A stretch of DNA of 64,000 nt, taken from NCBI GenBank assembly GCA_001603805.1, contig LUZY01000013.1, positions 248,001 through 312,000 on the forward strand. Direction: 5' to 3'. Positions 4,978-9,911 of this stretch are shown piece by piece. The notes under the pieces are model-generated. The model saw only the letters and a list, made by a program, of their open reading frames with translations. It made no database searches and was not told where the DNA came from. Position 1 is the first letter of the stretch; every line of letters begins with the position of its first letter. The DNA is from Deferribacterales bacterium Deferri_01 (GTDB taxonomy: Bacteria > Chrysiogenota > Deferribacteres > Deferribacterales > Geovibrionaceae). The translations under genes were made by a program, and so were the position numbers.

Positions 4978-7899
4978 TTACTGGCTTACTGTTACTCCGA
5001 GGAAGTTAGCCATAGCCTTAAATATAAATGTGTTATCAATGATATCCGTCATTCCTTCGCTATACATCTTACCGTTGTATCTGCTGAAGGTTTCATTCGC
5101 AAAATCACCTTTTGCATACACTGAAACAAGCTCATTGGTGTGTCGGCCTGTTCCGTAGAACACTTCTCCGTCAGGGTAGATGAAGCTTCCGCACCATTCA
5201 CCGGAGCATGTATCTGTTGCGGAATTAAATGCCTGCTGAGTGGGAAGGTCACCAAGTGCGGGTTTAAGGGTGTTGTTCAACCTGAGGAAACTGTTGCCGT
5301 GGTCTGATGTTACAATGAGCATTGTGTTTGACCAGTCTATGCTGTCACCGGGTTTATCCACAAATTCAATTGCTTTTTTTACAGCGTATTCGAGGTCAAT
5401 GACGCCTCCCACCATACCGCTGTAGTTGTTGGCATGGTTGGACCAGTCTATATCACCCTGTTCAACCATAAGGAAAAAACCGTTAGGGTTCTGTGCAAGA
5501 ACTTTCAGAGCTGCTTCTGTTGATTCGGAAAGAAGTGGGCTTTCAGAGTCTGTTGTCGCAAATGAAGGCACACCCGGAGTGTCTGTAACAACAGGAGTGG
5601 CTATCTGACCGCCGGTTCCGCCGAAAAGACCGAAAAGCTTTTTCCCGCTGCTTACCGCATTGTCGGCAGCGCTCAAAAGTGCTGTTCCGCCTGTGATTCC
5701 GCTTGCCCGTTCAACAAAAACATAGCTGCCGTCAGCTTTTATTGAGTTATAGGCGGATTCGCTTATATATCCATAATTTGGTGCTGCGGGAGTGCCAACA
5801 TAAACAGGATGTCCTGCTCCGATAACGACTTCCGGTTTTGTGACATTTACGATCTCTTCTGCTATTTCGACGTAATTGTTTCTGTTTACATTATGAGATA
5901 CAAAAGCAGCAGGAGTGGCATGGGAAAAGGGTACAGTTGTGACAACACCTATAGCTCCCTTTCTCTGGTTTCTTACTTTTTCCGCTATTGTAGTAAGGTT
6001 GCCGTCAGCAAGATCACCCGGAAGCCACGCTATATTGCCATCTACTGTTTTATTTCCTGTGGCAATGGCAGTACCAGCTGAAGCAGAATCAGTTGCAGCA
6101 TATCTGCGTATGTATTCCTCCTCAAGGTAAGGATAAGCATAAGCTCCGGCAACAGCTACATCATAGCCCACAATGCCGTATTCAACCTTGTTGTTCATTT
6201 TCGCAACTGCGTATCTGTCTTTGCCTTTAACATTTGCGTATGAATTGTAGGTGTCAATGTCCCATGTCGTGCAGTTTGCTTTGAAATCAAATGAATGAAA
6301 GCTGAGTGCATCGTCAGTACCAAACATATATCTGGAACCGGCTATTTCATGGGCTTTCTGCATACCGTCACCTATGAAAAGGATAACATTGTGGTTATTG
6401 TCAGCCATTGATTTCATAGCTCTGAACAGATCTGTATTGTCGATGAGTTCTGTGCCGGGGTAGAGAACACCCTGACGGGCTTCTAACTCTGCAACATCTG
6501 CTCCTTTTGCGTAGACGGAAACAAGCTCGTTTGTGTGTCCGCCTGTGCCGTAGAATACTTCTCCGTCAGGATAAACATAAGATCCGCAATAGTTCCCTGC
6601 GGGGCAGTTGGATGCATTTTTGGCTTCCTGTGATGGAAGATCACCGATACCGTTGGTTTTCCCTCTGTTGAATCTAAGGTAACTGTTGCCGTGGTCTGAA
6701 GTTACTATGATTGTAGTGTTGTTCCAGTTCATGCCGTTGACACCGTTTTCAACCATCTCTTCAGCTTTTTGTACAGCATAGTGGAGATCAAGAACTCCGC
6801 CGACCATTTTTGTGTAGTCATTTGAATGGTTAGACCAGTCAATGTCTCCCTGCTCAAACATTACAAAGAAACCTCCTGTTCCCGTTGCGGTGCTGAGAAC
6901 ATTAAGCGCTGCTTCTGTGGATTCTTCAAGAACAGGGCTTTCAAGCTCTGCTTTTGTGAAAGAAGGGGTTCCGGGAGTATCGGTTACGGTAGGAGTCGTT
7001 ATCTGACCGCCTGCGCTGCCGAATACTCCAAAAAGTTTTGTACCGTTACTCACTGCGTTTGCAGCGGCGGTAGCCAGAGCAGCAGCACCGTCATCACCTG
7101 TGTTTCTTGCAACATATTCATATGAAGCATCTCCCTGAACTACCGCAAGCTGTGCATTTGACATGTACTGCTCGCTGTAAGCCTGCGGGTGTCCGCCTCC
7201 TATGACAACATCAGGCTTAGTTACTGTGCTAAGTTCTGTAAATATCTCATGGTAATTATTTCTGTAAACATTATGGCTTACAAATGCAGCGGGAGTTGCG
7301 TGAGATATGGGTACTGTTGTAACAACACCGATTTTACCCGGCGTTGTTTTTGACTGATAGTATTCAGCTATTGTTTCAATCTCTCCATTTGCAGGATCTC
7401 CGGTTTCCCATGCAATATTACCGGCGTCTGTTTTAACTCCTGTGGCTATTGCAGTGCCTGCCGATGCCGAGTCTGTAGCTGCAGCACCCATTGATGAATC
7501 AAGAAAGTATTTGTCTTTTGCAAGTGAAGCAAGCCCCATCCGGAGAACATCAAAACCGGTTCTTCCATTAATGGAATCCGCATTGTATTCCGCATCGCCT
7601 CTTTCGCCTGCTAAGGTATTATATGCCGTTACATCCCATGTTGTTGAGTAGTTGGAGTAGGGGAAAACCGATGAGTCTTTCCATACAAGTCCTGTTTCAT
7701 TGCCGTAAAAATAGCGGCTTGCGGCGGCTTCATGCTCTTCGTGCATTCCGTCACCAATGAAAAGAATCACGTTTTTAGGAAGAGACCAGCCGTCCTGTCC
7801 GTCTTTTCCCGCTGTTCCGTCATTTCCGTCTGAACCGCACGCAGCAAGAACACTGAGTGAAAGACCGAGAAGCAGAGTTTTGAAAAATTTCGCTTTCAA
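4978..7899 (-). CDS. Tandem (double-domain) alkaline phosphatase lipoprotein
   Basis: The product has 973 residues. A lipoprotein signal (LLLGLSLSVLAAC, Cys21) is followed by a short Gly-rich linker and then two complete PhoA-type domains in tandem, about 40-500 and 503-973. Each has the metal Asp (FIGDGM; Asp50 and Asp511), the nucleophile Ser (TDSASAGTA; Ser144 and Ser605), SHATPAAF, EQGDIDWSNH, VTSDHGNS and the distal His (GGHTNE in the first, GRHTNE in the second). Usual family members have one such domain of about 450-500 residues. I chose the TTG at 7899, with GGAGG just upstream; the longer frame also begins with TTG and would displace the lipoprotein signal. It should hydrolyse phosphomonoesters at the envelope surface or in the periplasm. 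UshA and OmpA lie upstream. Confidence 0.88.
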   Translation of the reverse strand: MKAKFFKTLLLGLSLSVLAACGSDGNDGTAGKDGQDGWSLPKNVILFIGDGMHEEHEAAASRYFYGNETGLVWKDSSVFPYSNYSTTWDVTAYNTLAGERGDAEYNADSINGRTGFDVLRMGLASLAKDKYFLDSSMGAAATDSASAGTAIATGVKTDAGNIAWETGDPANGEIETIAEYYQSKTTPGKIGVVTTVPISHATPAAFVSHNVYRNNYHEIFTELSTVTKPDVVIGGGHPQAYSEQYMSNAQLAVVQGDASYEYVARNTGDDGAAALATAAANAVSNGTKLFGVFGSAGGQITTPTVTDTPGTPSFTKAELESPVLEESTEAALNVLSTATGTGGFFVMFEQGDIDWSNHSNDYTKMVGGVLDLHYAVQKAEEMVENGVNGMNWNNTTIIVTSDHGNSYLRFNRGKTNGIGDLPSQEAKNASNCPAGNYCGSYVYPDGEVFYGTGGHTNELVSVYAKGADVAELEARQGVLYPGTELIDNTDLFRAMKSMADNNHNVILFIGDGMQKAHEIAGSRYMFGTDDALSFHSFDFKANCTTWDIDTYNSYANVKGKDRYAVAKMNNKVEYGIVGYDVAVAGAYAYPYLEEEYIRRYAATDSASAGTAIATGNKTVDGNIAWLPGDLADGNLTTIAEKVRNQRKGAIGVVTTVPFSHATPAAFVSHNVNRNNYVEIAEEIVNVTKPEVVIGAGHPVYVGTPAAPNYGYISESAYNSIKADGSYVFVERASGITGGTALLSAADNAVSSGKKLFGLFGGTGGQIATPVVTDTPGVPSFATTDSESPLLSESTEAALKVLAQNPNGFFLMVEQGDIDWSNHANNYSGMVGGVIDLEYAVKKAIEFVDKPGDSIDWSNTMLIVTSDHGNSFLRLNNTLKPALGDLPTQQAFNSATDTCSGEWCGSFIYPDGEVFYGTGRHTNELVSVYAKGDFANETFSRYNGKMYSEGMTDIIDNTFIFKAMANFLGVTVSQ

Positions 7900-7948
7900 T
7901 TTACATCCTCCGAAGATTATTTGGCGTAACAACGCAAAATTGAGGATA

Positions 7949-8186: not shown

Positions 8187-9911
8187 TTAATTATTCATCT
8201 GTTTTAAATAATATTTCACAGGGAGCATATCTTCGGGAAGATTTTCCAGCTTTTTCCCAGAATTATAGAGATTTTGAAGGTAAGCTTTAAACACATCCCT
8301 GTAGTTTATGTACGTTTCCGGAGCAAAACCGTGCTTCTCCTGCGCTGTGCGGAAGGTTACATATCCCTCTCTGCCTCTGCCGGGAAAAGATGTGGTTGCT
8401 ATCAGGTATATTTTGTTATTATCCGGCTGCGTCCACTTTCCGGTGGCTTTATCTGTTATTCCAAGGGCTTCAACCCTTTGTCCGTAAGGCTTAGTCATGT
8501 TAATACCATAACGGAGACCATAAGCATAAGGGAACGAACGCATAGTATTCGTCTTGAGAGCATTATCCAGAGCGTCCTCAATGACTGCCTTTATTTCCTC
8601 TCCGGTCATTTGTATTTCCCACAGGGTGTCATGATGAGGCAGAAGATCAATCAGAGTTCCGAAGGTTATATTTTGATCTTTTACCACGCCGTCACGGGTA
8701 ACTGTAGCGTTTACCACCGCCGCATCAGCATTACCGGAATATTCAGCCATTGCCTTAGCAACAAGAGGAGCAAATAGCGAACCATGCGGCATTTCTGCAT
8801 CAGGTTCCCAATTCTGGGGAATATCATCAGCGGATACGCACAAAACTTTTTCTCTCATCGCTGACAATTCTTCTTCATAGTGATCCAGAACTTTCTGAGC
8901 CTGCGGGTCGGGGGTAACAAATTTTATATTAGGCGCACTGTCTACAGCCGCTTTTGCCTGTCCCGGTGATACTGAAGACTTGATAATATCCTGAATTATA
9001 ACAACAGGGCTGCCTGAACATGAAGTGACTTTGCCTTCATCATCAAAAACCACATCAAGATCTCCCACTGCAAAGCCGAAATATCCTGCCTGAACCACGC
9101 AGATGTTATTACCTTCTGCATCCGGTATAAACGTGGGGTAGGGACCTTCATATTTGAGACCAAGATTTGTGAAATCACCGAGAAGGGTATGTGAATCACC
9201 GTCAACGATAACATCCACGTCTTTCAGCTTATTTGCAAGCTCACCGATGCGCCCGTAACCATAATGGCTTAAAAGAACTATCTTGTTTATTCCCATTGAC
9301 TTAAGCTCTGCTGCATACTTTGAGACCGATTCATATTCGTCAAGAAAGGTTATTTCATCACTTGGCTTCGATGAACCCTGGGTTTTGCGTGAAACTGTAA
9401 GCCCGATTATACCGATCTTTTCCTCACCGATATTCTTAATGATGTACGGCTTTACTAATCCGTGAAGAGGACTTTTTTCTGACGCATTGATATTTGAGCT
9501 AATTAAGGGGAAATTGACTTCATCAATAAACTTTTTAAGCAGCCCGTCCCCTTCGTCAAACTCATGGTTACCCACTGCCATTGCATCAAATCCTGCAAGA
9601 TTCATCAAATCAGCGTTAGCTTTTTCCTTGAACACAGTAAAAAAAAGATGCTTGGAAAAAGCATCCCCGGCGTGAAGCACCAGACTATTGGGTATTTCAG
9701 CCCTTAAGCTGTTTATTTCACTGATAATAAGTGGAAAACCGCCCTGATTGACTTTCATTGTTATTCCGTCAATTGTGTAATCTGCCTGTTCTGCCCTTAA
9801 GTGTGAGTGATGATCGTTGATATGAATGATTTTAAGCTTGAAATCATCCGCGAATACATTAAATGAAACTAAAAAACTCATGGTGAAAATAAAAACGGAT
9901 AGTTTTTTCAT
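8187..9911 (-). CDS. UshA-type 5'-nucleotidase / UDP-sugar hydrolase, periplasmic
   Basis: This is a 574-residue secreted protein with a Sec signal peptide (about 1-21, ending FNVFA). The N-terminal calcineurin-like metallophosphatase domain shows IIHINDHHSH (29-37), HAGDAF and AVGNHEFDEG metal motifs, then VDGDSHTLLG. The C-terminal 5'-nucleotidase domain (from about 360) carries LLPHHDTLWEIQMTGEEI and the substrate-stacking region near the end. UshA-like enzymes dephosphorylate nucleotides and split UDP-sugars so the nucleoside and phosphate can be taken up. The start is an ATG after GCGGAGG. It has its own promoter and sits between ompA and the double phosphatase, an envelope phosphate-salvage group. 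The 545-550 residues usual for UshA agree with its length. Confidence 0.85.
   Translation of the reverse strand: MKKLSVFIFTMSFLVSFNVFADDFKLKIIHINDHHSHLRAEQADYTIDGITMKVNQGGFPLIISEINSLRAEIPNSLVLHAGDAFSKHLFFTVFKEKANADLMNLAGFDAMAVGNHEFDEGDGLLKKFIDEVNFPLISSNINASEKSPLHGLVKPYIIKNIGEEKIGIIGLTVSRKTQGSSKPSDEITFLDEYESVSKYAAELKSMGINKIVLLSHYGYGRIGELANKLKDVDVIVDGDSHTLLGDFTNLGLKYEGPYPTFIPDAEGNNICVVQAGYFGFAVGDLDVVFDDEGKVTSCSGSPVVIIQDIIKSSVSPGQAKAAVDSAPNIKFVTPDPQAQKVLDHYEEELSAMREKVLCVSADDIPQNWEPDAEMPHGSLFAPLVAKAMAEYSGNADAAVVNATVTRDGVVKDQNITFGTLIDLLPHHDTLWEIQMTGEEIKAVIEDALDNALKTNTMRSFPYAYGLRYGINMTKPYGQRVEALGITDKATGKWTQPDNNKIYLIATTSFPGRGREGYVTFRTAQEKHGFAPETYINYRDVFKAYLQNLYNSGKKLENLPEDMLPVKYYLKQMNN

Follow-up and report, generated by a model that had tools for sequence, protein, structure and literature searches.

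Alkaline phosphatase is a textbook two-chain enzyme, and the known alkaline phosphatase structures are single-domain homodimers. For circular permutations, the permutation-by-duplication model expects a functional doubled intermediate (PMC3320104), and the available text of that paper contains 0 occurrences of the word 'phosphatase'. A Chlorobia signature has been located in an 'alkaline phosphatase family protein', and the accessible part of the paper does not mention a change of order (PMC9318685). No description of a tandem or permuted alkaline phosphatase was found in the literature searched, which covered few subscription papers; database records with two PF00245 matches may exist. Here, a tandem alkaline phosphatase gene was analysed in a 64 000-nucleotide stretch of contig LUZY01000013.1 of Deferribacterales bacterium Deferri_01 (hereafter the window, meaning this whole stretch). 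Its features are collected in Table 1.

A preliminary description had placed two complete catalytic domains in one lipoprotein gene. This was borne out by two PF00245 stretches, by 13 of 13 site positions in each half and by the lipobox LAAC. The coordinates given for the gene were correct, and its strand, which had been left out, is minus. The whole protein matched PF00245 (Pfam) in two stretches with 253.9 bits (cut-off 24.4), and either half passed by itself as well (122.6 and 104.3 bits). NF007810 (NCBIfam), the equivalog model of E. coli PhoA, was not reached (182.6 bits against a cut-off of 540). Judged by these profile scores, the protein belongs to the same superfamily as E. coli PhoA and lies outside the PhoA equivalog. 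With N for the Asp-strand segment and C for the nucleophile/metal core, its order is N-C-N-C. A circularly permuted alkaline phosphatase was defined as one in which the core comes first, with no Asp strand before it. In the window protein an Asp strand precedes the first core, and the permuted C-N order occurs only as an internal stretch.

Table 1. Features of the tandem alkaline phosphatase gene and its surroundings (positions in the window).
Feature	Position	Strand	Basis or remark
Tandem alkaline phosphatase lipoprotein gene	4978..7899	minus	973 aa, TTG start; PF00245 3.6e-75, 2 stretches
Shine-Dalgarno GGAGG	7907..7911	minus	7 nt 5' of TTG; GGAGG and AAATTG kept in three species
Signal peptide and lipobox LAAC, residues 1-21 (predicted)	7837..7899	minus	read from sequence; kept in G001 and G002
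Gly-X-X tether GSDGNDGTAGKDGQDG, residues 22-37	7789..7836	minus	sequence comparison; G003 version longer
N1, Asp-strand segment of domain 1 (ILFIGDGM, D50), residues 42-130	7510..7776	minus	N profile 105 bits
C1, nucleophile/metal core of domain 1 (S144 ... H455), residues 137-499	6403..7491	minus	C profile 530 bits
Domain junction IDNTDLFRAMKSMADNNHNV, residues 486-505	6385..6444	minus	profile matches and alignment with permuted relatives
N2, Asp-strand segment of domain 2 (ILFIGDGM, D511), residues 503-596	6112..6393	minus	N profile 114 bits
C2, nucleophile/metal core of domain 2 (S605 ... H920), residues 595-969	4993..6117	minus	C profile 571 bits
Secreted 5'-nucleotidase-like metallophosphoesterase, upstream neighbour	8187..9911	minus	PF00149 and PF02872
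Imperfect inverted repeat TTTTGCGTTGTTACGCCAAA	7920..7939	minus	directly 5' of Shine-Dalgarno; alignment, by eye

The TTG start codon lies at 7899-7897, and GGAGG with TTG was also present in two congeneric genomes (G001 and G002). The lipobox LSVLAAC (residues 15-21) was recognized by eye, without a predictor, and is kept in the three species. Cys21 is the predicted lipidated residue. Directly after it comes a collagen-like tether of five Gly-X-X triplets. Neither a signal nor a tether precedes the second copy.

Active-site positions were mapped by alignment to solved structures, used as a yardstick, and are named after the PhoA residues (Zn1, Zn2 and Mg ligands, nucleophilic Ser, Arg166). 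A global alignment of residues 38-500 with residues 501-973, the two halves, gave 246 identities over 455 columns (54%), and 13 PhoA-equivalent site positions were present in both. Given as PhoA position to half 1/half 2, these are D51 to D50/D511, D101 to D143/D604, S102 to S144/S605, 153 to H200/H660, T155 to T202/T662, R166 to R213/R673, E322 to E349/E813, D327 to D354/D818, 328 to W355/W819, H331 to H358/H822, D369 to D402/D866, H370 to H403/H867 and H412 to H455/H920. The last His lay beyond the best PhoA alignment and was placed via a profile alignment with VAP (VAP chain position 465), in a stretch that is a weak match alone (3.8 bits). Both halves have His and Trp at the equivalents of 153 and 328, as do VAP and TAB5, and the best solved match by sequence was the E. 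coli D153H/K328W mutant 1y7a. All 13 positions were identical in the six halves of the window protein and its two intact congeners. The motifs named beforehand (Asp50/511, Ser144/605 and others) are thus kept in both halves in three species, and no essential ligand was missing from either half upon alignment. Loss of one active site was rejected, on the 13 of 13 positions in both halves and a low dN/dS for both.

The GRHT motif of the second half, against GGHT in the first, had been put forward as a possible sign of divergence of the second site. This was not upheld because R919 is a substitution of one species: it was present in the window protein only, whereas the second half reads GGHT in both intact relatives and in a broken copy in G003, a genome of another genus of the same family. 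The two halves could still have drifted to different substrates, one being directed for example to nucleotides and the other to other esters. Their identity of only 54% and their differing insertions would fit such a division, but the 13 site positions are the same in both, and we consider it unlikely.

Identity between the halves was 67, 70 and 36% at the first, second and third codon positions. The duplication is far too old for a doubled assembly, because only 36% of third positions agree. The same tandem was present in other genomes, in two of them at 84-85% identity, and there was no second locus in the genome. Assembly doubling was rejected on these grounds, and with it the assembly error raised in the preliminary description. 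That the second half stems from a sequencing or assembly artefact, or from duplication in the very recent past, is contradicted by the same third-codon identity and by the two other genomes; nothing was found in its favour, and its probability is negligible. Between species, half 1 had dN/dS values of 0.061, 0.068 and 0.070 and half 2 values of 0.071, 0.069 and 0.035, with underlying dS values of 0.87-1.56, near saturation. Both halves are under purifying selection.

Of 59 relatives searched, 17 gave any match; among them are the two congeners, with the complete tandem at the identity given above. In G003 the tandem was found at about 63-66% identity, broken by a TAA codon and a frameshift. 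This copy (locus L004), with one in-frame stop, one frameshift and most of both halves readable, may reflect decay or sequencing error. Twelve genomes of the family, the window's own included, were searched with profiles, and the tandem was intact in three, which are all the genomes of the genus that the search covered. G003 has the broken tandem plus a separate single-domain alkaline phosphatase, two genomes have a single-domain enzyme only, and six have no PF00245 match. The tandem is the sole PF00245 gene of the window's genome, and a profile search of that genome gave no match for PhoD or PhoX. Among plasmids, 153 records matched the tandem, none with a single place spanning more than 80% of it. 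Since intact N-C-N-C was found only in the genus, with one broken copy in G003, this distribution speaks for a narrow, partly lost trait. The duplication is older than the split between the genus and G003, because the first core of G003 clustered with the first-domain rows in the core tree (99/94).

Upstream on the same strand lie the 5'-nucleotidase-like gene and an OmpA-type gene, and downstream an ABC-F-like ATPase gene. In G001 the OmpA-type gene is directly upstream and the ABC-F-like gene downstream, with no nucleotidase between. In G002 a metallophosphoesterase also adjoins the tandem, but on the opposite side. A terminator-like hairpin was seen by eye at the end of the 5'-nucleotidase gene, so the phosphatase gene probably has its own promoter. 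The inverted repeat at 7920-7939 is kept in three species, with TTTGG...CCAAA in two relatives, and is a candidate operator or leader hairpin. Nucleotide salvage outside the cytoplasm would be a reasonable setting for the tandem phosphatase.

Relatives were collected in a scan that covered a single genome for each species and used the aligned six halves as query, and the best 80 of 518 confirmed stretches were taken. N and C profiles were built from 15 single-domain relatives together with both halves of the window protein, and the order of their matches was determined on every open frame of 200 aa or more in these best 80 of 518 loci. Of the 80 loci, 23 had one N-C protein in which 70 or more N positions matched, and 14 had C followed by N; L061 was cut by a contig end, and the other 42 were more distant or partial. 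N-C-N-C was restricted, among the best 80 of 518, to the tandems of the genus (L001-L003), with L004 in pieces. The search for further tandems proposed in the preliminary description thus added the two congeners and the broken G003 copy, and the other multi-copy members (L045, L048, G216 and G232) proved to have the permuted order. Multi-copy phosphatases of the subfamily are not confined to the window's genus; the others found are permuted. Two adjacent but separate alkaline phosphatase genes of a distant subfamily were seen in a Thermoguttaceae MAG (L069).

The 14 permuted loci comprised 12 from Chlorobiota, one from Chloroflexota (L048) and one from Fermentibacterota (L063). In these proteins the Asp51 strand follows the nucleophile core, to which it is connected by a short linker nearly like the domain junction of the window protein. 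A six-frame search for pieces of any length found no N piece before the first core in 15 loci (the 14 and L061); this is no test in L045, L055 and L065, because they begin at a contig end. Searches of the whole genomes of L056, L057, L048 and L063 returned the same permuted order. The 13 site residues were present in all 15 permuted rows, apart from two positions missing in L055, whose contig starts late.

Evenly drawn samples of three phyla, not whole phyla, were searched further. Among the matches listed for 198 genomes of the phylum of the Chlorobaculum strain, its own included, at least 12 cores above 390 bits were present in at least 10 genomes, and all 12 of these were followed 15-21 nt later by an N piece in the same frame; weaker, more distant enzymes of this sample are uncounted, and overlap with the earlier loci is possible. 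In 395 genomes of the phylum of the Geobacteraceae strain, including that of L028, 12 cores exceeded 560 bits (up to four candidates scored per genome): 11 were N-C, one was a core only, and none had the tandem order. Across 400 Chloroflexota genomes, cores above 450 bits were found only in the L048 genome; two others had weaker cores of 190-199 bits, for which the threshold was too high for an N piece to appear.

Several permuted proteins hold more than one copy, two in L045, G216 and G232 (in one frame each in the latter two) and three in L048. In the Chloroflexota MAG (L048:1244-7522), a single frame of 2093 aa holds the three permuted copies and, after them, BACON_2 and choice-of-anchor I. 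The two permuted units of L045:1-3462, offset by 1731 nt, are identical over their first 1418 nt, which may be a very recent duplication or an assembly repeat. L063:3776-5323, from a Fermentibacterota MAG, encodes a small free-standing permuted enzyme (516-aa frame) that appears to fall outside the permuted clade of Chlorobiota.

Pfam searches of five Chlorobiota proteins found He_PIG in all five, and a SWM repeat and choice-of-anchor I before the phosphatase in four. The best He_PIG stretch was the first part of the domain, before the phosphatase, in L050, L054 and L057, and the last part, after it, in L045 and L047; the missing partner parts were read by eye. Because the first part precedes the phosphatase and the last part follows it, the enzyme sits within the Ig domain. 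This layout, a permuted phosphatase in the He_PIG loop (WLxF / AP / GTP), was seen in L047, L050, L051, L054, L056-L059 and L064, in frames of 1364-1629 aa; Pfam was run on four of these nine loci and on L045, the rest were read by eye, and L059 is cut before the second part. Long C-terminal parts were also noted on the single-domain proteins L028, L030, L031, L037 and L044. By Pfam that of L028 is choice-of-anchor I and that of L037 phytase-like; by eye, L030 and L031 resemble L028 and the part of L044 appeared metallophosphoesterase-like, the latter with no match in Pfam.

The junction IDNTDLFRAMKSMADNNHNV of the window protein occupies the same place as the core-to-Asp-strand linker of the permuted relatives and is slightly shorter. 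Window residues 125-590 (core 1, junction and Asp strand 2) were colinear with the permuted proteins, and the C match was separated from the following N match by 3 residues, against 5-7 in 15 of 17 permuted copies and 4 and 11 in the other two. With this alignment across the junction and the similar gap, the internal stretch of the tandem is already permuted in layout, which is what the permutation-by-duplication model expects of its intermediate. In form the window protein corresponds to the doubled stage of this process, whose end products exist among its subfamily relatives.

The permuted module of L057 was modelled with AlphaFold2 from 36 rows (pLDDT 85.8, pTM 0.80). Ten-residue means of its Asp-strand segment were 84-98 at residues 441-520 and 57-75 at residues 521-540. 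Its core (residues 76-440) was superposed on E. coli residues 96-447 with Z 31.3 and an rmsd of 3.2 Å over 305 aligned residues (VIA-align); the aligners used on this model were sequential. Model confidence and the family alignment suggest that the Asp strand lies beside the Ser in this module. In a MAFFT trial, all 37 single, permuted and multi-copy relatives were placed on the second half of the tandem only, and the AlphaFold2 model of the window tandem, from three rows, had a pLDDT of 31, too low for use.

Because only 3 residues separate the profile matches at the junction, a second pairing of the parts is also conceivable, in which the D511 strand would complete site 1 via the short junction and the D50 strand site 2, so that the two heads would be interlocked. 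Colinearity over the junction with real permuted enzymes, a gap shorter than in the permuted copies and the confident folding of one relative in the permuted order would all fit this exchange. However, ordinary pairing is the default for tandem domains, and core 2 would have to take its strand from far off in the chain; the exchange is improbable in our estimation. The combined proposal of a living doubled stage of phosphatase permutation with reciprocal sharing, the Asp511 strand serving site 1 and the Asp50 strand site 2, is likewise held to be a long shot. If it were true, trimming the gene ends would release a permuted enzyme like that of green sulfur bacteria.

In a core-only tree of 62 rows, the tandem group and the permuted group (Chlorobiota and Chloroflexota) each formed one clade (100/99). 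The bootstrap of this tree was not fully settled (0.986 of 0.99), and it leaves out L018, all loci numbered higher than L075, cores that matched fewer than 250 profile positions, and identical copies. In a tree of 39 rows with N and C in one order, the tandem joined six single-domain proteins (93/87), four from Desulfuromonadales, one from Desulfonema and one from Burkholderiaceae, and the tandem, single-domain and permuted groups came together at 95/92. Rows left out of it were L004, the second of the identical copies in L045, three partial sequences (L055, L061 and L065), and long or partial single proteins (L043, L049, L052, L060 and L062 among others). A clade of tandem and permuted forms was neither supported nor rejected (AU p 0.088). 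The window protein as direct ancestor of the permuted clade was not supported, the tandem being nearest to single-domain proteins. Since the trees place it there, its duplication was probably an event separate from that of the permuted forms. A single origin of all permuted forms including L063 was rejected (AU p 0.0054). As the AU test keeps L063 outside the permuted clade, this suggests a second permutation, with the caveat that L063 comes from a single MAG and forms a long branch of deviating composition.

The reading that we favour, and regard as likely, is a lipid-anchored, two-headed alkaline phosphatase whose halves pack as an internal pseudo-dimer, each with its own Asp strand. It would have arisen when a single-domain ancestor, belonging to a large PF00245 subfamily of bacteria, was duplicated within its own gene. 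The product would be exported and carry a lipid at Cys21, with the Gly-X-X tether keeping it away from the membrane. Each half would bind two zinc ions and one magnesium ion, and phosphomonoesters would be hydrolysed at S144 and S605 by the usual serine-phosphate mechanism. Most likely D50 serves site 1 and D511 site 2, and the halves would pack together in place of the usual two-chain dimer. The covalently fused dimer suggested in the preliminary description is plausible. The halves might instead be unpaired, each working alone or dimerising with halves of other molecules; no interface within the chain was seen, the sole tandem model being unusable, but the short junction leaves little freedom, and this arrangement seems to us possible though doubtful.

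As a natural one-chain double phosphatase with both sites kept, the protein would let communication between the sites be studied by mutating one site at a time within the same chain. With the other members of its subfamily, which are single, permuted, double-permuted or triple-permuted, it forms a rare permutation-by-duplication series for a two-metal enzyme, and this series carries a prediction on which Asp serves which Ser. Also unusual is the architecture in which an Ig domain encloses a permuted phosphatase.

Like E. coli PhoA, VAP and TAB5, the window protein has all 13 site positions examined, with His at 153 and Trp at 328 as in VAP and TAB5. It differs from these enzymes in having two domains per chain, a predicted lipid anchor and a Gly-X-X tether; the core superposed on E. 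coli PhoA (Z 31.3) belongs to the modelled permuted relative, not to the window protein. The single-domain proteins L028, L030, L031, L037 and L044 have the N-C order, are 46-51% identical to its second half and are its tree neighbours (93/87). All five have one phosphatase domain, which in L028 is fused to a choice-of-anchor I part and in L037 to a phytase-like part, not to a second phosphatase. The permuted enzymes of Chlorobiota, L048 and L063 belong to the same subfamily, with the same site residues and a similar linker between core and Asp strand. Their order, in contrast, is C-N, those of Chlorobiota lying inside a He_PIG Ig domain and the longer ones behind choice-of-anchor I. For DNA methyltransferases and for saposin/swaposin, a functional doubled protein is the predicted intermediate, as far as the accessible part of the source goes (PMC3320104), and it is this doubled form that the window protein resembles.
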